Made by a program: the position numbers and the translations under genes. From the IMG/VR virus record IMGVR_UViG_3300030104_005504, positions 1 through 64,000 of that record: DNA of 64,000 nt. One strand, 5' to 3'. Under the pieces are notes generated by a model. The model was given only the letters and a program-made list of their open reading frames with translations. It ran no database searches and had not been told where the DNA came from. Positions 50,739 through 63,418 of this stretch are shown here, in pieces (position 1 is the first letter of the stretch; each line of letters begins with the position of its first letter). The DNA comes from a virus.

Positions 50739-50996
50739 CTATTCTACTAGTACTATGTCTCTCATACGTATAACTCTATATAATTCGTCGTTATATCCAA
50801 TATCATGCCCAGCGTGTTTATCATAGTATATAGTATCACCTTTTGTTACTATCTCTACCATATTACCAACTGAAACTATATTAGCTTTTTTATAACGATT
50901 TGATTCATCAGTTTCATCTGTTAAGATTAAACCACTAACTTTCTTTGGTTCTTCTTTTATTATATCAACTATAACGTAATCATTAACTGCTTGCAT
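50739..50996 (-). CDS. groES: Co-chaperonin GroES
   Basis: An 85-aa 10-kDa co-chaperonin. The conserved GroES ladder is present: 'VNDYVIVDIIKEEPK', the mobile loop with hydrophobic tip 'KKVSGLILTDETD', 'IVSVG', 'VTKGDTIYYDKHAG' and the final 'RVIRMRDIVLVE'. It caps GroEL during folding. It overlaps the end of groEL by 14 nt. Unlike bacterial operons, groES here follows groEL in transcription. Confidence 0.9.
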   Translation of the reverse strand: MQAVNDYVIVDIIKEEPKKVSGLILTDETDESNRYKKANIVSVGNMVEIVTKGDTIYYDKHAGHDIGYNDELYRVIRMRDIVLVE

Positions 50997-52551
50997 TTTC
51001 TACTCTTATATTTGAAATTACACAATCTGCTGACATAACAGTTAAAGCTACACTCACAGCATTTTTAAGCGCAGATTTAGTTACTAATACTGGATCGATA
51101 ATACCCTCGCGAACCATGTTAGGAAATGTTCCGTTTATAACATTACAACCATAACCTTCTTTTAGATTACTAGGTTTCATCATTAAACCAGCATTGTCCA
51201 TTATTGTTTCATATGGTGAAGATAGAGCATCTAACAATACCTTACCAGCATCGCTGGTCGAAATTTTTTGAGATGCATTTAATAGTGCTATACCACCTCC
51301 TGGTACAATACCTTCTTGTAGTGCAGCTTTAGTTGCATATATAGCATCTTCTATTCTATCTTTCTTTTCTTTCAGCTCAACCTTAGAATTAGCACCAACC
51401 TTAATTATACCTACACTACCTGATAACGTAGCTAATCTTTGCTCTAGTTTCTTTTTAATAAAACCATTCTTTTCTTCAGCTAACTTTTTATTTAATTCAT
51501 CTATTCTATCTTCAATACTATCCGTCATACCTTCTAGTGTTAGCACTGTGCTTTTATCATTTGTTACAGCAAACTCAGCTTCTCCTAAGTGCTCTGGTTT
51601 CATAAGATCTAAATCATCACCTAACTCTTCATTAAGTACTGTTGCTCCAGTTAGTATAGCTAAATCCTCGGTGGCATCCTTTTTAGTAGGACCAAATCCT
51701 GGAAGATCTACTATATTGACCTTTATATTACCTTTAACCTTATTCATCATGAGTGCCGACTTTACTTGCTGTGCTACTGGTGCTACTATAAGTAAAGATC
51801 GGTTACTTTTAATAACGTGTTCTAGTATAGATTGTATTTTTCTAACATTTGGTATCTCAGATGAACATATAAGTATTAGCGGATTATCCAATTCACATGT
51901 ATGTTTTTCTGTATTAGTTGTAAAGTGTGGTGAAGTTAATCCACAATCAACTTGAACTCCATCTACTATATCAACATATGTGTCTTCAGTTGGTGATTCT
52001 TCCATAAGAACAACACCATTCTTACCTACTTTTTCGTAGGCTTCAGATATTATAGCACCTAACTCCTTATCATTATTACATGATATAGAGCTAACAGACT
52101 TTAACATATCGCCTTCTACGTCAATAGCTATAGTGTTTAAGTAGCTAATGACACTATCTAGTGTTTCATTTACTCCGTCTTTAATTTCTCTGATTGTAAG
52201 ACCATCTGCGACCGCAGTGTCTATTTGTTTGATTAACGCCTCTGCTAATACTGTAGCGGTTGTAGTACCATCTCCAGCTTCTTTAACTGTATTTCTAGCA
52301 GCTTCTTTGATTAGTGTTGCTCCCATGTTCTCAACCGGATCATATAAGACTACGCTCTCTGCAACGGTTACACCGTCTTTTGTTATGACCGGTTTGCCTC
52401 TCCCGTCTTCATAGATGACACATTTTCCTGACGCACCTAATGTAGACTTAACGGCTTGGGCTAATTTATTTATTCCTGATATTACTTTATCTTTGGCTTC
52501 ACCTCCAAAGGCGAGGTCCTTCACCAATTCACTTGGTAAGTTGTATTCCAT
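50983..52551 (-). CDS. groEL: Chaperonin GroEL
   Basis: A 522-aa chaperonin subunit. ATP-site motifs 'ITKDGVTVAESV' and 'AGDGTTTATVLAEAL' (DGTTT ~94-98), the apical/intermediate text 'VDLPGFGPTKKDATEDLAIL', and 'DRIEDAIYATKAALQEGIVP' with the catalytic Asp and 'GGGIALL' are all intact. The usual C-terminal GGM tail is missing; it ends 'VISNIRVENASS'. It probably folds capsid or other large late proteins. Confidence 0.93.
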   Translation of the reverse strand: MEYNLPSELVKDLAFGGEAKDKVISGINKLAQAVKSTLGASGKCVIYEDGRGKPVITKDGVTVAESVVLYDPVENMGATLIKEAARNTVKEAGDGTTTATVLAEALIKQIDTAVADGLTIREIKDGVNETLDSVISYLNTIAIDVEGDMLKSVSSISCNNDKELGAIISEAYEKVGKNGVVLMEESPTEDTYVDIVDGVQVDCGLTSPHFTTNTEKHTCELDNPLILICSSEIPNVRKIQSILEHVIKSNRSLLIVAPVAQQVKSALMMNKVKGNIKVNIVDLPGFGPTKKDATEDLAILTGATVLNEELGDDLDLMKPEHLGEAEFAVTNDKSTVLTLEGMTDSIEDRIDELNKKLAEEKNGFIKKKLEQRLATLSGSVGIIKVGANSKVELKEKKDRIEDAIYATKAALQEGIVPGGGIALLNASQKISTSDAGKVLLDALSSPYETIMDNAGLMMKPSNLKEGYGCNVINGTFPNMVREGIIDPVLVTKSALKNAVSVALTVMSADCVISNIRVENASS

Positions 52552-55410: not shown

Positions 55411-55535
55411 TTGTTAATATTTTTAATTTTAATAATTGTACGATTCTTTATCGCTTTTCTACAATGAAGATAATTACACAGAAGAATTGATATTTACTAT
55501 TTATCCCGTATTATAAATATAGGAATAAAGTGCAG

Positions 55536-55617
55536 CCCCCCTTCCCCCCAGGCCCCCACCCCCCTATGAAAGTCAAATCATTTCACCCAGCCCCCCAATA
55601 TACCCCCATTTTCCCCC
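55536..55617 (+). repeat. C-rich tract (potential i-motif/G-quadruplex)
   Basis: Seven runs of 5-6 C within 82 bp (55536-55541, 55544-55549, 55553-55557, 55559-55564, 55591-55596, 55603-55607, 55613-55617), in an otherwise AT-rich genome. The minus strand is correspondingly G-rich and fits a G-quadruplex pattern of at least four G-runs with short loops. Lying at the early/late divide, it could mark an origin, a pausing site or a protein-binding site. Confidence 0.75.
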
Positions 55618-55661
55618 ATATATTCTGACTTTTTTTCTCAAATACATATTCACTCACTAAC

Positions 55662-55688
55662 TAACTACGAATCCACTAAGATAATATA
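55662..55688 (+). promoter_or_regulatory. Early element copy 1 (TAACTACGA variant)
   Basis: TAACTACGA, nine spacer bases, GATAATATA. One mismatch to the consensus first box. It sits upstream of the first early genes in the divergent region, far (about 155 nt) from the first ATG. Confidence 0.55.
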
Positions 55689-55782
55689 TATGTAACAAAT
55701 AAATAATATACTTATGATAATAACATTTATAATAATAAAGACAATTGATTTAATAATTAAAAATAAAATCGAAAGTACAAAG

Positions 55783-55809
55783 TAAATACGAAGTATAATA
55801 GATAATAAT
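55783..55809 (+). promoter_or_regulatory. Early element copy 2
   Basis: TAAATACGA, nine spacer bases, GATAATAAT (last bases vary). ACAAA precedes it. It lies 33 nt upstream of the first early gene ATG at 55843. Confidence 0.6.
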
Positions 55810-55842
55810 AATATAAATAATAACTTACTAAAATATAATAAT

Positions 55843-56061
55843 ATGACTTTAAAAAGATTTGTAATAAGAAAGTCCTTAATAGGCAAGAACGAAGTAATAA
55901 CGTTTACTAACAAGAAAGGTGAAGTAGTAAAGTATAATCATGACGATGTGTATAACGCTCACAAAGATAGATTTGAAGCAATGAACTGTTTCGCTAAGTA
56001 TAAAAGTTATACTAATACTAATGCTATGCCAGCATTCTGCCGAGATATGAAGATTCAGTAG
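55843..56061 (+). CDS. Small early protein, paralogue of 56546-56776
   Basis: A 72-aa protein. 'KRFVIRKSLIGKNEVITF', 'YNHDDVYNAHKDRFEAMNCF' and 'AKYKSYTNTN' line up with the second early protein (KRFVVRQSLVGKNATINV..., YNHDKVFAIMKDKLEAMACW, AKYKSYTSSG). First gene of the early block, after element copy 2. Small early phage proteins are often host-takeover factors; the target here is unknown. Confidence 0.6.
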   Translation: MTLKRFVIRKSLIGKNEVITFTNKKGEVVKYNHDDVYNAHKDRFEAMNCFAKYKSYTNTNAMPAFCRDMKIQ

Positions 56062-56223
56062 TATCTCGCACACTAAAAACAGTGACAATTGCCTATTACT
56101 CTTATAAGTATAATTAGCTAATGTCACACTTTTAAAAATAATAAGTAATTGTGGAGTGAGAGAAGTGGCGGAGTAACTGTAACTAATTTTAATAATGTAA
56201 ACAAAACTACTACTTTTACAAAC

Positions 56224-56250
56224 TAAATACGAATAAGAAAAGATAATATA
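56224..56250 (+). promoter_or_regulatory. Early element copy 3
   Basis: TAAATACGA, nine spacer bases, GATAATATA, preceded by ACAAAC. It lies about 21 nt before a short ORF start at 56272. Confidence 0.6.
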
Positions 56251-56271
56251 AACGTAACTAAAATATAACAA

Positions 56272-56346
56272 ATGGAATTTATAATACTAGTAACAATAGC
56301 AATAATAGTAAAAACCGCTGAGAAATTAGCTAAAATTGAAGAATGA
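56272..56346 (+). CDS. 24-aa membrane microprotein
   Basis: A tiny ORF downstream of element copy 3. It starts MEFIILVTIAIIVKTAEK, a single hydrophobic helix with a charged tail. Its TGA overlaps the next ATG by one base. It could be a membrane peptide, but its size makes this uncertain. Confidence 0.4.
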   Translation: MEFIILVTIAIIVKTAEKLAKIEE

Positions 56347-56474
56347 TGATAGATTTGAAAACATTAAGTAAAGAACAATTAGAATTAGTACTTCATAATA
56401 TGAGAATATATGGAGTAAGCAACGAGAAGCGTCAAAATGTTATTGACGAGTTAAACTCTCGAAATGAAGAATAA
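56346..56474 (+). CDS. 42-aa hypothetical protein
   Basis: A short helical protein ('LKTLSKEQLELVLHNMRIYG', 'SNEKRQNVIDELNSRNEE'), coupled to the previous microprotein. The pattern (helix-turn-helix-like, then acidic end) could mark a small DNA- or protein-binding early protein. Function unknown. Confidence 0.5.
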   Translation: MIDLKTLSKEQLELVLHNMRIYGVSNEKRQNVIDELNSRNEE

Positions 56475-56492
56475 TTGTGAGTCGTCACAATA

Positions 56493-56519
56493 TAAATACG
56501 AACAAGTGTAGATAATATA
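56493..56519 (+). promoter_or_regulatory. Early element copy 4
   Basis: TAAATACGA, nine spacer bases, GATAATATA, preceded by ACAATA. It lies 26 nt before the ATG at 56546. Confidence 0.6.
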
Positions 56520-56545
56520 AATATAACTAAATAAAATATATAATT

Positions 56546-56776
56546 ATGACTAATGTAATAGAATCAAAGAGATTTGTAGTAAGACAATCTCTAGTCGGAA
56601 AAAATGCGACTATAAATGTAACTTTTAAAAATGGTAAAACTGCGACTTATAATCACGATAAAGTGTTCGCAATAATGAAAGATAAGCTAGAAGCAATGGC
56701 TTGTTGGGCGAAGTACAAGTCGTACACATCAAGTGGTAATTTACCAATGTCGGTAAGAAATGAAGACATTGCCTAA
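56546..56776 (+). CDS. Small early protein, paralogue of 55843-56061
   Basis: A 76-aa protein aligning with the first early protein along most of its length ('RFVVRQSLVGKNATINVTF', 'YNHDKVF', 'KLEAMACWAKYKSYTSSGN'). Two diverged copies in the early block suggest an ongoing arms race with a host target. Function unknown. Confidence 0.6.
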   Translation: MTNVIESKRFVVRQSLVGKNATINVTFKNGKTATYNHDKVFAIMKDKLEAMACWAKYKSYTSSGNLPMSVRNEDIA

Positions 56777-56798
56777 TGCGAAAGTTTAATCATGAAGT

Positions 56799-56953
56799 GG
56801 TGTTTAAGAGTTTATTAAACACCATTTATATCGCCAGCGGAATTGTGCTATTGATATTAATGATTAGTAATATGTAAATCATACAAAACCACTAATGAAG
56901 TGCTGATTAGTTAGTGGTGATTTAAAGTCGTAGTTGACTACGTTTAGCGACTT
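56799..56953 (+). other. Cluster of strong hairpins in a gene-free stretch
   Basis: Between 56777 and 57140 there is no convincing gene. Three stems are visible: GGTGTTTAA/TTAAACACC (56799-56807 and 56815-56823), ACCACTAA/TTAGTGGT (56888-56895 and 56911-56918) and CGTAG/CTACG nested in AAGTCG/CGACTT (56925-56953). The first could be a terminator for the early protein gene but lacks a T-run. The rest may belong to a processed RNA that also includes the tRNA-like elements. Confidence 0.5.
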
Positions 56954-56972
56954 ATAAAAAATGCGAACGAGT

Positions 56973-57058
56973 AAGTAGTGAAGGCGGCTGTAGTCCTCTG
57001 TGAAAAACCAGTTAACTCCGAGTGATGACAATCAAGTGGTTCGAGTCCACAACTACTA
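56973..57058 (+). ncRNA. tRNA-like RNA 1 (acceptor and T arm, no clear anticodon arm)
   Basis: The 3' part is tRNA-like: T loop TTCGAGT in a GTGG/CCAC stem, and an acceptor helix AGTAGT/ACTACT. The interior is about 55 nt and does not form a convincing D plus anticodon cloverleaf. A weak CTG/CAG hairpin around TGAAAAAC and a GTTA/TGAC stem are the best alternatives. I cannot assign an anticodon. It may be a degenerate tRNA or a tRNA mimic like the T4 stable RNAs. Confidence 0.4.
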
Positions 57059-57061
57059 CAA

Positions 57062-57138
57062 GGTAATTATGGTAAAGCGATACTGATAGCGACCGAATGC
57101 GCAGAAAAGCTTAGTGAGTTCGATTCTCACTATTACCA
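57062..57138 (+). ncRNA. tRNA-like RNA 2 (acceptor and T arm, no clear anticodon arm)
   Basis: A 77-nt element with acceptor GGTAAT/ATTACC and a perfect T arm (GTGAG-TTCGATT-CTCAC). A D-like stem GGTA/TACT is possible, but no 5-bp anticodon stem with a U33 loop is found. The interior may fold as AAGC/GCTT around a GCG/CGC hairpin. It follows tRNA-like RNA 1 by 3 nt. Confidence 0.4.
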
Positions 57139-57140
57139 CT

Positions 57141-57410
57141 ATGAATATAGAGATAATAATGAGTAATACTTACGGAGTATTAACAAACAAGTGTTCCGTA
57201 GAAGATATTCTTAACCAATATGAAGGTGAAGATGCAATGTTTTATGGTAATCCATACGATATGGAATGTACTGATATTGATGAAGTAATAAACTTCTACG
57301 AGAATACTGAAGAATATGAAAAGTGTAGCGAATTGTTAAGTGTTAAAAATGACATTATAGCAGAAAAATTAACTAAAAAATTGATAAGAAAATGCCTTAT
57401 AGAGAATTAA
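57141..57410 (+). CDS. Small early acidic protein
   Basis: An 89-aa protein, rich in Glu, Asn and Cys ('NKCSVEDILNQYEGEDAMFY', 'IDEVINFYENTEEYEKCSEL'). I place the start at 57141, after the tRNA-like element, rather than at an upstream in-frame ATG (57114) that lies inside its T arm. A start at 57159 (MSNTYG) is also possible. Function unknown. Confidence 0.55.
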   Translation: MNIEIIMSNTYGVLTNKCSVEDILNQYEGEDAMFYGNPYDMECTDIDEVINFYENTEEYEKCSELLSVKNDIIAEKLTKKLIRKCLIEN

Positions 57411-57493
57411 CAAACGAAGAGTACAATCAAGAACAGCATGATTATTATGCTAGTTACTTGGAAGATCAAGTGGAATTCCACATAAATGGTTGA
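57392..57493 (+). CDS. 33-aa hypothetical protein
   Basis: A short ORF ('MPYRELTNEEYNQEQHDYYA') that overlaps the previous gene by 19 nt and ends just inside the tRNA-Arg 5' end. It is acidic and aromatic. Weak support. Confidence 0.35.
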   Translation: MPYRELTNEEYNQEQHDYYASYLEDQVEFHING

Positions 57494-57561
57494 GTAGCTT
57501 AACTGGATAAAGCAACAGCCTTCTAAGCTGTAGAGTGTAGGTTCGAATCCTACCTCAATCA
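57488..57561 (+). tRNA. tRNA-Arg (anticodon UCU)
   Basis: A full cloverleaf: acceptor GGTTGAG/CTCAATC (one G-U pair), D arm GCTT...AGCA, anticodon stem ACAGC/GCTGT with loop CTTCTAA (anticodon TCT), and T arm GTAGG-TTCGAAT-CCTAC. CCA is not encoded. It would read AGA codons, which are frequent in this AT-rich phage. Confidence 0.92.
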
Positions 57562-57566
57562 CAATG

Positions 57567-57593
57567 TAAATACGATTAGTGTAAGATAATATA
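57567..57593 (+). promoter_or_regulatory. Early element copy 5
   Basis: TAAATACGA, nine spacer bases, GATAATATA, 5 nt after the tRNA and only 3 nt before the ATG at 57597. Confidence 0.65.
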
Positions 57594-57596
57594 ATT

Positions 57597-57719
57597 ATGA
57601 AAATACGACGAAAAGACATAAAAACTAGAGACCCTTATTGGAAATTAGCGTCCTTCAAACGTGTTCATAAGAGTAAAAAGACTTATACTAGAAAGAAAAA
57701 ACATAAGAATAATGAGTAA
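57597..57719 (+). CDS. 40-aa very basic protein
   Basis: A short Lys/Arg-rich ORF starting MKIRRKDIKTRDPYWKLASF and ending with a Lys/His-rich tail. It directly follows element copy 5. Its end overlaps the next gene start by 8 nt. Probably a nucleic-acid-binding early protein. Confidence 0.5.
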   Translation: MKIRRKDIKTRDPYWKLASFKRVHKSKKTYTRKKKHKNNE

Positions 57720-57891
57720 ATTAACAACAGTAACAGTGTTAGACTTCATAAAAGGTGAAGTTCACCAATATGATATTGACAAATGGAACATAGATAAGTA
57801 TTCTATAGAAGATTTTCTATACAATAACGACCATAATGTGAGTAATTGTCAGTGGATGGTACACGAAGATGCTACAATATATGTAAAATAA
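57712..57891 (+). CDS. 59-aa early protein
   Basis: An acidic small protein ('MSKLTTVTVLDFIKGEVHQY', 'NIDKYSIEDFLYNNDHNVSN'). The ATG at 57712 is preferred over the longer frame opening at 57661, because the basic ORF overlaps that part and the protein text begins cleanly here. Function unknown. Confidence 0.5.
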   Translation: MSKLTTVTVLDFIKGEVHQYDIDKWNIDKYSIEDFLYNNDHNVSNCQWMVHEDATIYVK

Positions 57892-57892
57892 T

Positions 57893-58483
57893 ATGAAAAA
57901 AGTAAGAACAATGCAAGAAGCATACCGAGTATTTGAATTACTTGGTATCAAAGAAGTCACTAAACCGTGGCAAAAACGTAAAGGTACTGAAGTATGGGAG
58001 TTACCATTTAAAACTATGTACTATAATGGTAGTACAGAAATCAATAGATTTACTATTTATAAGAACGGTTATGTTCGTAAAATGATAGTTTATGGTGAAA
58101 ATAACGCTAGTAAAAGCTGTTATCAACTAAATAGAGTGCGTAAAGTAGCTAGTTTTATTAAAGATTACAAGTGGTGTGATGAGAGAAATGACTCATTTTG
58201 GACTGGTAAATACCGTAAAGTATACAACAACGAGCGAATTATGATAGATACTCATAGAGATCGAGTAGTATATTTATGTAATTACATACTAAAAAACTAC
58301 TATAGGAACAGTAAGTGTGGTTTAGTTGGCGAATATACTATGAAAAGAGTATCAGAAGTACATGGTGAATGGTGGAGAAACGAAAGAAAACATGACCAAT
58401 TACCATTTAAATGTGAATCAGAGACTTTCACTAAAGATGAAGTCAAAGTAATAATCAACGGACACCGTTATAATTTAAGTTAA
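57893..58483 (+). CDS. 196-aa early protein
   Basis: An aromatic and basic alpha/beta protein ('MQEAYRVFELLGIKEVTKPW', 'TSEINRFTIYKNGYVRKMIV'-like strands, 'GEYTMKRVSEVHGEWWRN'). It begins one base after the previous stop. It contains single cysteines but no recognisable motif. Function unknown. Confidence 0.55.
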   Translation: MKKVRTMQEAYRVFELLGIKEVTKPWQKRKGTEVWELPFKTMYYNGSTEINRFTIYKNGYVRKMIVYGENNASKSCYQLNRVRKVASFIKDYKWCDERNDSFWTGKYRKVYNNERIMIDTHRDRVVYLCNYILKNYYRNSKCGLVGEYTMKRVSEVHGEWWRNERKHDQLPFKCESETFTKDEVKVIINGHRYNLS

Positions 58484-58486
58484 AAT

Positions 58487-58624
58487 ATGTATAAAGTAAT
58501 AGGAATTTATAAAGGTAATGAAGAAGTATTGGAAAAACAAGTAGAAACCAAACAAGAAGCTAATCGATTAACACAAGAATATCAAATGTCGTTTGGTAGA
58601 GAATGGATAATTTATAATAAATAA
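58487..58624 (+). CDS. 45-aa hypothetical protein
   Basis: A short ORF between two genes ('MYKVIGIYKGNEEVLEKQVE', 'RLTQEYQMSFGREWIIYNK'). It has a beta-alpha-beta layout and tight packing. Function unknown. Confidence 0.45.
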   Translation: MYKVIGIYKGNEEVLEKQVETKQEANRLTQEYQMSFGREWIIYNK

Positions 58625-58630
58625 TAAGAT

Positions 58631-58882
58631 ATGATAGAGAAATTAAAAGACTTAGAACAAGAAGCAATGGACGAGTTAACGCCTGAAGATTACATGGCGA
58701 TAACCTCTAATGTAATGGACGACTATGAGCGACCAATATACCAAAGTGGATATATAGATGGCTTACAAACCGCTATAAGATTACTTAGTGAAAATGACTC
58801 AAACATGAGCTACAATATAGAGATTGATGAGATGTTTGGTGAAGATTATGCTACGATTGATGAAGATGAAAACACAAAATAA
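58631..58882 (+). CDS. Acidic early protein
   Basis: An 83-aa, mostly helical, strongly acidic protein ('LKDLEQEAMDELTPEDYMAI', 'LQTAIRLLSENDSNMSYNIE'). Its acidic nature could mimic DNA or bind a basic host factor, but that is speculative. Confidence 0.5.
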   Translation: MIEKLKDLEQEAMDELTPEDYMAITSNVMDDYERPIYQSGYIDGLQTAIRLLSENDSNMSYNIEIDEMFGEDYATIDEDENTK

Positions 58883-58906
58883 ATACGATAACTCGTAGAT
58901 AATATA
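58880..58906 (+). promoter_or_regulatory. Early element copy 6
   Basis: TAAATACGA, nine spacer bases, GATAATATA, overlapping the previous stop and 3 nt before the ATG at 58910. Confidence 0.65.
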
Positions 58907-58909
58907 TAT

Positions 58910-59119
58910 ATGAAATGTAAATGTAATAAAATAATACCAGAAGGCCGCCTGCGATTAGGCTTTAAAGTTTGTGTAGATTGCTCGACTGTTTCAAGATACG
59001 GTTGTGCTCCAGTCATAAACCACAAAACGGGTAATACTATCCAGATAATGTCTAGTGAAGATGCTGCGAAAGTCGCTAAGCTATTCCGCAGGAGAGGCTA
59101 CGGTACAATGCTAAGATAA
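58910..59119 (+). CDS. Zinc-ribbon-like early protein
   Basis: A 69-aa protein. It opens 'MKCKCNKIIPEGRLRLGFKV' and continues with CVDCS, giving two CxC/CxxC pairs spaced like a small zinc ribbon of the DksA/TraR kind. The rest is basic ('KVAKLFRRRGYGTMLR'). It may bind RNA polymerase or DNA. It follows element copy 6. Confidence 0.6.
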   Translation: MKCKCNKIIPEGRLRLGFKVCVDCSTVSRYGCAPVINHKTGNTIQIMSSEDAAKVAKLFRRRGYGTMLR

Positions 59120-59120
59120 T

Positions 59121-59531
59121 ATGAATAAAGAAGAATTAAATAAAGAAATAGAGAAACTAAAGGTTTCACTTGAAGCCCATGAGGAACAAGTAAAAGATTT
59201 AAATCACGATTTAAGAACTGCTACGCAGAGATTAGAAGATATTGATAAGCCAAAGTTAACTCCAAAACAATTTGATGAGTTGCATAAAGTTATAGAAACT
59301 AGCGTGGAAAACTTCGATTTTAACCAAGCTGATAACTATAATGTAGAAATGGCAATGGAATATGATAATAAAGTGGTATTAGAGCACATAGAATTTGAAT
59401 GCCATGCTGATTTATACGAGCAAATCATAAGAGATGTTGAAAGTTTATTTGGCGTAGCTGATGAAAGTGACGACGACAAAAATACACGCTATTGGGATAG
59501 CGATGGAAATGTTGCCTCGCCAAGCGAATAA
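59121..59531 (+). CDS. Coiled-coil early protein with acidic tail
   Basis: A 136-aa protein. The first half is a coiled coil ('NKEIEKLKVSLEAHEEQVKD'), the second half is acidic ('EHIEFECHADLYEQIIRDVE', 'ADESDDDKNTRYWDSDGN'). Starts 1 nt after the zinc-ribbon gene stop. Function unknown. Confidence 0.5.
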   Translation: MNKEELNKEIEKLKVSLEAHEEQVKDLNHDLRTATQRLEDIDKPKLTPKQFDELHKVIETSVENFDFNQADNYNVEMAMEYDNKVVLEHIEFECHADLYEQIIRDVESLFGVADESDDDKNTRYWDSDGNVASPSE

Positions 59532-59543
59532 TCAGTTATAAAC

Positions 59544-60009
59544 GAGCGTGGGTTGTAATCACCTGAACAAAATAATGCGCTCAAACGCGAGGGAATAAAG
59601 TCGAAAATGTGACTTGTCCTAGGAAAAAAAGACTTCCCTCGCACGTCTCCAGAGATAATAACCTTTACGTGGTTGGAGATATAAGTAGGAAGTGTTTAGA
59701 TACAACTGAAACTAATAATTATCAAGTGATCTGACTATATCTATGTATAAAGATGAGGTTGGTCACCGTGAACTAGGTGGTTCAATGTAGGATAAAGCGA
59801 TTAAAACAAACTCTAAGGTTCGCGATGGAATAGTAGGCGAAGTCATGCTATAGAAGTCGAAGGGATAAGGTTTTATAGAACCACTCCTACGGTTCACAAC
59901 AGCTTGAACTGGGCGATGTCCGCAAAGAGGGGATGACGTGAGCAATCACAAGTATTACCCGCTGGGTCGTTACCTGACGAGGTGGGAGGTTCGATCCCTC
60001 CCCAAGCTG
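59544..60009 (+). ncRNA. Large structured RNA region ending in a tRNA-like 3' end
   Basis: About 470 nt with no convincing gene but many strong stems: GAGCG/CGCTC (59544-59548 and 59578-59582); a perfect 9-bp stem GCGAGGGAA/TTCCCTCGC (59587-59595 and 59634-59642) with an inner AAGTC/GACTT hairpin; TCTCCA/TGGAGA (59646-59651 and 59674-59679); a GTGA-GCAA-TCAC tetraloop hairpin near 59938; and a 3' end with a T-arm-like GGAGG-TTCGATC-CCTCC (59985-60001) plus an acceptor-like AGCTTG/CAAGCT helix (59901-59906 and 60003-60008). It could be a group I intron remnant, a tmRNA-like RNA or a novel phage RNA. Confidence 0.5.
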
Positions 60010-60020
60010 CTAACACAAAT

Positions 60021-60047
60021 TAAATACGAATAAAGTAAGATAATATA
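60021..60047 (+). promoter_or_regulatory. Early element copy 7
   Basis: TAAATACGA, nine spacer bases, GATAATATA, right after the structured RNA and 3 nt before the ATG at 60051; preceded by ACAAAT. Confidence 0.65.
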
Positions 60048-60050
60048 TTT

Positions 60051-60281
60051 ATGAAGAATTTATACAACAGACTCAAACCAGATATTCTGGCGAGTATAAA
60101 CGAAGATAAACAAAAGTATCCTTTTACAACTAGAGCATTAAAGCTTAAACTTAAATCTACTTATGATTGGTCAGAGTTGTCAATAGGTAATGTTCATTCA
60201 ATAATTAACCATTCTCATATAAATTTAGTTGATATTTGTCAAACAGATTTATTATTCGGAGTCAGTTTTTTGAAAAAATAA
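60051..60281 (+). CDS. 76-aa early protein
   Basis: A basic protein with 'LYNRLKPDILASINEDKQKY' and 'TTRALKLKLKSTYDWSELSI'. The layout could fit a small winged-helix or DNA-binding protein, but no motif is certain. It follows element copy 7. Confidence 0.5.
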   Translation: MKNLYNRLKPDILASINEDKQKYPFTTRALKLKLKSTYDWSELSIGNVHSIINHSHINLVDICQTDLLFGVSFLKK

Positions 60282-60285
60282 CAAT

Positions 60286-60390
60286 ATGGAGTGGGAAATA
60301 ATAAATAATGGAAATATGTTAAGTATAACAGGAGTAATATTAGCTTATTTGATATTTTTTATAATATCTATAATAGGTGTAAAACAATAA
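60286..60390 (+). CDS. 34-aa transmembrane microprotein
   Basis: A tiny ORF with a 20-residue hydrophobic helix ('LSITGVILAYLIFFIISIIG'). It is packed between its neighbours. A small early membrane peptide is plausible. Confidence 0.45.
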   Translation: MEWEIINNGNMLSITGVILAYLIFFIISIIGVKQ

Positions 60391-60393
60391 AAT

Positions 60394-60813
60394 ATGGCAA
60401 CAAGAGCAACAATAAGTATTGCTAGACGTGAAGAAGGAGTATCGTTTAGCGAAAAACCAAACAAGACAATTGTGGACATCTATCATCACTATGATGGATA
60501 TCCTGAAGGATTAGGTGTGACATTAGCATCTTATCTTGATGATAAAGCAATTACAAATGGATTAGGTAATAGAGATGATTATGATTATTTCAATGGATTG
60601 GGTTGTTTAGCTGCATCACTTATAGCTGAACTAAAAGATGGTCCAGGAAACGTGTATATAGAAGACAAAGATCGACCACATGGTTGGTTAGATTATAAGT
60701 ATTATGTGTGGGGAGATGATAATAAAGGTATATGGATTAGTATATTTGATGGTGACGAATGTATATTTGTAGGAAAACCTAGACATTTATTAAAAAAATA
60801 CTATCAAGGATAA
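60394..60813 (+). CDS. Conserved phage protein (MATRATIS...YHHYDGYPEG family)
   Basis: A 139-aa protein. The start 'MATRATISIARREEGVSF', the central 'VDIYHHYDGYPEGLGVTLAS' and the end 'GDECIFVGKPRHLLKKYY' match a small family often seen in phages and some bacteria ('xTRAxIxx...HxDGYPEG'). Function unknown; the His/Tyr/Asp-rich motif could bind a ligand. Confidence 0.65.
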   Translation: MATRATISIARREEGVSFSEKPNKTIVDIYHHYDGYPEGLGVTLASYLDDKAITNGLGNRDDYDYFNGLGCLAASLIAELKDGPGNVYIEDKDRPHGWLDYKYYVWGDDNKGIWISIFDGDECIFVGKPRHLLKKYYQG

Positions 60814-60820
60814 CACGAAC

Positions 60821-60847
60821 TAAATACGATAACCTATGGATAATATA
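60821..60847 (+). promoter_or_regulatory. Early element copy 8, overlapping a start codon
   Basis: TAAATACGA, nine spacer bases, GATAATATA, preceded by ACGAAC. Here the ATG of the next gene (60836) lies inside the spacer, so the second box is coding. Confidence 0.6.
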
Positions 60848-63058: not shown

Positions 63059-63418
63059 ATGACTAGAATAAACGTGGGAATACACCCAGCTGAGTTAACA
63101 GATAAACATCTGTTAGCTGAACACAGAGAAATAAAACGTATACCAAACTGTGTAGCTAAAGGTAAATACAATATGGATGGTGTACCAAATAGATTTAAAT
63201 TAGGTAAGGGACATGTTAAGTTCTTTTATAATAAGTTATTATATTTAAGTAAAAGATACCTACAGTTATACAAAGAATGTATAGCAAGAGGTTTTAATGT
63301 ACAAAACTATATAGAGGCATGGACAGATATACCAATAGAACTAATGAATGATTACTATCCAACAAAAGAAGATAGGTTGATAGTACAACAAAGAATTAAC
63401 GAAAAATTAAATAAATGA
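63059..63418 (+). CDS. denV: Pyrimidine-dimer DNA glycosylase / endonuclease V (T4 DenV-like)
   Basis: A 119-aa protein closely resembling T4 DenV. 'MTRINVGIHPAELTDKHLLA' then 'EHREIKRI' keeps the N-terminal Thr nucleophile (Thr2 in the ORF) and the catalytic Glu (E24, equivalent to T4 E23), with R23 and H17. 'GKGHVKFFYNKLLYLSKRYL' and 'ECIARGFNVQNY' match the DNA-clamp helices. The last ~19 residues of T4 DenV are missing. It cuts UV photoproducts, useful for a sunlit marine phage. Confidence 0.9.
   Translation: MTRINVGIHPAELTDKHLLAEHREIKRIPNCVAKGKYNMDGVPNRFKLGKGHVKFFYNKLLYLSKRYLQLYKECIARGFNVQNYIEAWTDIPIELMNDYYPTKEDRLIVQQRINEKLNK

Follow-up and report, generated by a model that had tools for sequence, protein, structure and literature searches.

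Structured RNA cassettes with a tRNA-like 3′ end between early genes of a virus related to Cellulophaga and Flavobacterium phages

Structured RNA occupies the gene-free gap at positions 59,532-60,050 of the viral DNA analysed here and ends, at 59,901-60,009, in a genuine tRNA-like structure (TLS). The region almost certainly represents a conserved family of structured RNAs with a tRNA-like end. The window is a stretch of 64,000 nucleotides, part of a 71,144-base viral record, in which the gap is flanked by the open reading frames (ORFs) 59,121-59,531 and 60,051-60,281 and holds no convincing gene. Its G+C content is 0.38-0.48, against about 0.30 across most neighbouring sequence. An original prediction, made from the letters alone, had described a gene-free structured RNA of about 470 nt at 59,544-60,009. 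The gap proved real and the borders almost exact, with covariation in 17 phages and model matches in five of five further relatives. The region is nevertheless a string of self-closed, separately folding cassettes rather than the single RNA envisaged, and the number and order of these independent units vary among close relatives. The folding energy of the whole region is moderately unusual (z = -2.1; 3 of 100 shuffles equally good), with z = -1.45 for the TLS alone and z = -4.4 for the hairpin at 59,587-59,642. As folding energy by itself is moderate, the case for a structured RNA rests on comparison with relatives.

Relatives were gathered via a nearby DNA ligase gene, which yielded 27 related loci, most contigs being taken in full; the RNA region occurs in many of these contigs, split into conserved blocks. 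The terminase of the phage is about 44% identical to those of Flavobacterium phages, about 39% to those of Cellulophaga phages and 63% to that of MW202828, a Manatee Spring genome. A DNA search of the region against known phages gave no match, and an exact TLS 23-mer was not found in IMG/VR; a looser TLS pattern returned 16 stretches, nearly all in contigs of the ligase-related set. In model searches, Elemovirus (NC_055853) and Cellulophaga phage phi18:3 remained without a match, and matches in phi38:1, Calle_1 and Gundel_1 were mostly confined to the T arm, the best one in Gundel_1 lying within a tRNA cluster. A model match in MW202828 at 11,685 lies within a coding region and was discarded. 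Elsewhere in MW202828 (L116 523-697), two tandem degenerate tRNA-like elements, read by eye, stand 5′ of a terminator-like hairpin: one has a tRNA-Leu-like D arm, the other a D arm and no anticodon arm, and the pair is neither annotated nor called by ARAGORN. Literature searches covering open-licence papers turned up no account of comparable elements in these phages.

The tRNA-like structure

From 5′ to 3′, the TLS comprises a 7-position acceptor, a few nucleotides in which GG is invariant, an insert that varies, a hairpin of 4 bp that is placed like a variable arm and whose loop is always GACG, and a T arm whose loop has TTCGA. It is the upper half of a tRNA, consisting of acceptor, T arm, D-loop GG and variable-arm-like hairpin. 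The acceptor and the T arm with its TTCRANN loop are those of a canonical tRNA; a D stem and an anticodon arm with a 7-nt loop were not found. The copy in the gap, TLS-C (59,901-60,008, + strand), is defined by covariation and matches covariance model R1 with 45.7 bits. Its acceptor AGCTTGA/CCAAGCT (59,901-59,907/60,002-60,008) has strands about 100 nt apart and is extended by an additional pair, C59,900-G60,009, G60,009 being the discriminator position. Between the strands lie a D-loop-like GG, a variable insert bearing the GNRA hairpin GTGA-GCAA-TCAC (59,938-59,949), the variable-arm-like hairpin ACCT-GACG-AGGT (59,972-59,983) and the T arm GGAGG-TTCGATC-CCTCC (59,985-60,001). The GNRA-like tetraloop, the T arm and the acceptor-like helix AGCTTG/CAAGCT had all been anticipated and are all present.

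Comparative folding, which had been suggested as a check, bears out this anatomy. The TLS was found in 17 phages, and 13 of the 17 counted pairs change on both sides yet still pair; a first alignment of 11 sequences had given 12 of 16. About 97% of alignment cells are paired, against at most 51% in slid controls, a percentage biased towards structure since the rows were hand-cut around the T arm and the variable insert was replaced by N. Model R1, built from 11 TLS, recognises the five further relatives, left out of its building, with 46-69 bits. It is because of this comparison, combining the covariation of 17 relatives with the R1 matches, that the TLS stands far above chance. Pair -1:73 also covaries (10 C-G, 6 U-A and one unpaired among 17 sequences), and pair 7-66 is unpaired in 8 of the 17. 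The insert ranges from 2 to 83 nt, with 2 counted nt in L121. The minimal copies (L121, L122 4547 and G007) have one short hairpin only and show that the TLS can do without the anticodon half. When the window is compared with L122, a close relative, pairing within the insert is kept through changes, the GNRA loop passing from GCAA to GTAA; judging from this one sequence pair, the insert is therefore probably under selection too.

The absence of a recognisable D stem and anticodon loop means that the TLS is not a decoding tRNA, an intron-split tRNA or a tmRNA. ARAGORN called no tRNA or tmRNA in the gap. The Rfam search, on which the claim of novelty could have foundered, matched no family in the region, neither at the gathering threshold nor at E <= 10; together with the covariation across relatives, this supports the proposal of a new phage RNA family. 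The two other candidates put forward at the outset do not survive. For a tRNA interrupted by an intron, no anticodon arm is recognisable, the insert is down to a few nt in L121, no group I or II intron is matched at E <= 10 and there are no two halves that could be joined to give a complete tRNA; a stretch resembling GACTATATC was weighed as a possible group I core, but Rfam gave no intron match on either strand. For a divergent tmRNA, tmRNA models give no match, the inserts of 2-83 nt have no shared tag reading frame and the alanine determinant G3:U70 is lacking in the window copy, which has C3-G70. In many copies the acceptor/T stack is close in length to the 13 positions of tRNA-Sec; the match to tRNA-Sec is at chance level (E = 6.9), and both the D stem and the UCA anticodon are absent. 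One TLS, L022 4879, barely exceeds the Rfam tRNA threshold with 30.3 bits.

In tRNA-Ala and tmRNA, G3:U70 is the identity element for alanine. It is present in the TLS of six relatives (G008, G009, G010, G012, G013 and G014; L015-L017 and L020-L022), five of which also have A73 and GGG-type acceptors. Such TLS might be charged with alanine.

The upstream cassettes

Five cassettes precede the TLS on the + strand. M1 (59,544-59,582) is an element closed by GAGCG...CGCTC around a GGTTGNAATCACC core; the same core and closing stem, with differing inner stems, are found in G019, G020, G023 and L125. M3 (59,587-59,642), detected by repeat search and folding, was found in this genome only and consists of a second hairpin enclosed by the perfect 9-bp stem that had been predicted (59,587-59,595/59,634-59,642). 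M5 (59,645-59,724) is a GTCTCCA...TGGAGA element with a variable stem followed by GAAACTAATAATTATCA, conserved in G001, G002, G004, G005, G006 and G015; GATAAT (59,654-59,659) and ATTATC (59,718-59,723) may form a putative pseudoknot, the pairing being invariant among relatives. M6 (59,726-59,766) is a GTGATC...GGTCAC hairpin (folding z = -2.0) that recurs in G001, G021 and G022.

The last of the five, M8 (59,768-59,897), is a nested double pseudoknot with helix order A B C B′ C′ A′, first spotted by eye in the array and supported by covariation. Helix A pairs 59,768-59,773 with 59,892-59,897, helix B 59,777-59,781 with 59,880-59,884, and helix C 59,787-59,791 with 59,886-59,890; the conserved loop ATAAAGC occupies 59,792-59,798. 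Changes on both sides are seen in 14 of 15 pairs, in 13 distinct versions. Most rows of the alignment were found with the help of helices B and C; helix A, which played no part in finding them, covaries fully. A loose pattern for the 5′ half hits 49 viral stretches, a number attainable by chance, and the pseudoknot was counted only in the 18 in which a matching 3′ half follows. It is also present in other viral contigs, and at five of the nine loci that lie outside the ligase set its start is at most 10 nt from a stop codon. Exact matches to its loop pattern are absent from 84,980 species genomes.

Elsewhere in the family, the stem of cassette M2 covaries, in five distinct versions only. Cassette patterns match almost only within this array, the short M2 pattern being also scattered elsewhere. 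Among relatives the cassettes are shuffled, differing in number and order, and the array nearly always includes a TLS at or near its 3′ end; the TLS is the one member shared by all the arrays that were read. Small hairpins move between modules as well: CCGAAACTCGG is found in the pseudoknot loops of G015 and L140 and in M2 of G005, G020 and G023, and GCCGACTATCGACGG in the TLS insert of G012 and the pseudoknot insert of L176. Hairpins with a GACG loop show no genome-wide enrichment; only their position next to the T arm is conserved. A rather doubtful proposal sees in the cassette array a new kind of element, whose modules are gained, lost, reordered and nested around a constant TLS, each acting on a host factor; with each module so acting, the array would evolve like a hypervariable anti-defence gene cluster, in RNA.

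Placement between early genes and proposed role

When 25 phage sequences (20 phage contigs plus pieces from further relatives) were scanned on both strands with a descriptor, 36 elements emerged, including a genuine tRNA-Asp (L123 3804), a doubtful case (G011 13176) and one in G002 whose 5′ strand was mis-picked and whose 3′ end is right. ORFs of at least 60 aa contain none of the 36; 29 end at most 60 nt from the next ORF, and seven stand exactly 12 nt 5′ of a promoter-like motif. The TLS also occurs directly 5′ of gene starts that lack this motif. The gap that precedes the homologues of ORF 60,051 holds a TLS in ten genomes, the pseudoknot in two, a tRNA-Asp in one, other cassettes in four and an ordinary gene in five; TLS, true tRNA, pseudoknot and other cassettes exchange within one slot.

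The promoter-like motif, TAAATACGA-N5-GTAAGATAATA, is located at 60,021-60,045 (+ strand), 12 nt 3′ of TLS-C. The record has eight good copies, every one on the + (early) strand within 55.6-60.8 kb (window 55,662-60,845), and the motif is possibly a phage-specific early promoter. Between 55.4 and 63.0 kb, terminator-like sites are absent from the early strand and present on the opposite strand only. An RNA-based early system with two tRNA-like elements had also been suggested, and in substance this is upheld. TLS-A (56,974-57,058, + strand), read from sequence, has an AGTAGT/ACTACT acceptor and a TGAT-GACA-ATCA hairpin just 5′ of its T arm; its R1 match (57,010-57,057, E = 0.006) is weak alone, and its folding z is +0.7. 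TLS-B (57,062-57,138, + strand), found by descriptor and R1, has a GGTAAT/ATTACC acceptor and a T arm, is followed by an ATG three nt past 57,138 and has an identical copy in G001. A genuine tRNA-Arg (TCT) at 57,488-57,562 on the + strand (ARAGORN; Rfam tRNA, 73.5 bits) sits just 5′ of another copy of the motif.

The region most likely forms the 3′ untranslated part of an early transcript: transcription would begin at the 58,880 motif, and the array would make up the end of the message that covers 58,910-59,531. The function tentatively favoured is that of punctuation: host RNase P and RNase Z would divide early transcripts at the TLS, which retains the parts read by tRNA-maturation enzymes (acceptor stacked on T arm, T loop and D-loop GG). 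Host RNase P would cut on the 5′ side of the TLS and RNase Z just past its 3′ side. Together with the true tRNAs, the TLS would thus serve as punctuation marks at which early phage RNA is severed between genes, the cut giving the upstream message a defined structured 3′ end and the downstream message a new 5′ end. For the upstream cassettes, 3′-end protection or protein binding would be the likeliest roles. In the 36 elements, the successive bases 3′ of the acceptor stem are R in 35, C in 35, A/T (W) in 35 and A in 32; R-C is kept in this flank and a full CCA is rare. CCA tends to inhibit RNase Z, and any bearing of the flank on that enzyme is a guess.

The covarying upper half of a tRNA, the placement at gene borders, the exchange with a true tRNA and other cassettes in one slot, the lack of terminator-like sites on the early strand between 55.4 and 63.0 kb and the MW202828 elements before a terminator-like hairpin all fit punctuation, and RNase P is known to process plant-virus TLS, phage M3 and C4 RNA, pre-tmRNA and polycistronic mRNAs (PMC11143913). 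Other features sit less well with it. The covarying -1:73 pair could shift or hinder cleavage, an ordinary gene fills the slot in five genomes, and punctuation alone requires neither the conserved GACG hairpin nor a structured insert nor elaborate cassettes. Its leading rival, itself unlikely, holds that TLS and cassettes are freed as stable RNAs that act as decoys, occupying host defence proteins or tRNA-targeting nucleases, the array being reshuffled as defences change. Decoys would account for the rapid shuffling of cassettes among relatives whose flanking proteins are 50-85% identical. Evasion of tRNA-targeting defences by phage tRNAs is known (PMC10264068, PMC11555353), and Cas12a3 holds tRNAs by their acceptor, tail and T arm (PMC12851939), the half kept in the TLS. 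A decoy, however, needs neither an exact position at gene borders nor a place 12 nt before a promoter-like motif.

It is likewise improbable that TLS, tRNA and pseudoknots are 3′-end stabilisers that block 3′ exonucleases without being cut, as do the structured 3′ ends of plant RNA viruses. The substitution of dissimilar elements for one another in one slot, the proximity of the pseudoknot to stop codons outside the ligase set and the extension of the helix by the -1:73 pair would all suit such a role; where the TLS directly precedes a gene start lacking the motif, however, a 3′-end role would need a cut after the TLS. Very little weight is given to the view that the TLS are phage tRNA genes in decay, now drifting and functionless after loss of the anticodon half. 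The MW202828 elements, with their tRNA-Leu-like and D-arm features, look by eye like intermediates of such decay, but the paired changes in 17 genomes and the conserved 3′ flanks show that the TLS is under continued selection.

Known systems and neighbouring genes

The tRNA-like domain of tmRNA resembles the TLS in having an acceptor, a T arm and a D-loop GG without a D stem, and it is cut by RNase P, as would be the TLS; unlike tmRNA, the TLS has no tag frame or Rfam match, and its acceptor strands are only 77-141 nt apart. In plant RNA viruses such as TYMV, whose tRNA-like end is an RNase P substrate (PMC11143913), a chain of elements, pseudoknots among them, likewise has a tRNA mimic at its 3′ end or close to it. 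The phage acceptor, in contrast, lacks the pseudoknot of plant viruses, being an ordinary two-strand helix with covariation, and the TLS belongs to a DNA phage, in several copies per genome and between genes. In mitochondrial tRNA punctuation, tRNAs between genes are cut on both sides and the messages freed, which is the mechanism proposed for the phage, whose elements are, by contrast, mostly anticodon-less mimics that would be cut in the same way. The stable RNAs of T4 are small phage RNAs tied to RNase P. So are the phage C4 and M3 RNAs (PMC11143913). None of them matches the TLS or the array in sequence, and their architecture differs. GOLLD and ROOL are large, ornate non-coding phage RNAs, often near tRNAs. 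Their structures have been described (PMC12286853); neither is matched here by Rfam at E <= 10, and a reshuffled chain of cassettes differs from one conserved fold.

A group of uncultured phages with cultured relatives among Cellulophaga and Flavobacterium phages carries strongly covarying RNA families that Rfam lacks. Mimics without an anticodon, placed between early genes, would be the phage counterpart of mitochondrial punctuation and of the tRNA-like ends of plant viruses; if the cassettes bind defence proteins, they would amount to variable anti-defence clusters made of RNA instead of genes. Under either reading, the shaping of phage messages by host RNase P becomes directly testable.

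The ORF at 59,121-59,531 (+ strand) encodes an early coiled-coil protein of no known family, without a Pfam or PHROG match, for which AlphaFold predicts a coiled coil and a small alpha/beta part (pTM 0.37). Its homologues in other contigs (L140, L142, L160, L162, L171 and L176) adjoin the pseudoknot or array on either side, and this repeated bordering makes the protein a possible RNA partner. A very C-rich tract (runs such as CCCCCCTTCCCCCC) marks the border between leftward and rightward gene blocks at 55,530-55,620. A phage-encoded GroEL-like chaperonin, recognised from its translation, lies at 50,983-52,551, and a pyrimidine dimer DNA glycosylase (Pfam PF03013, E = 9e-16) at 63,059-63,418.
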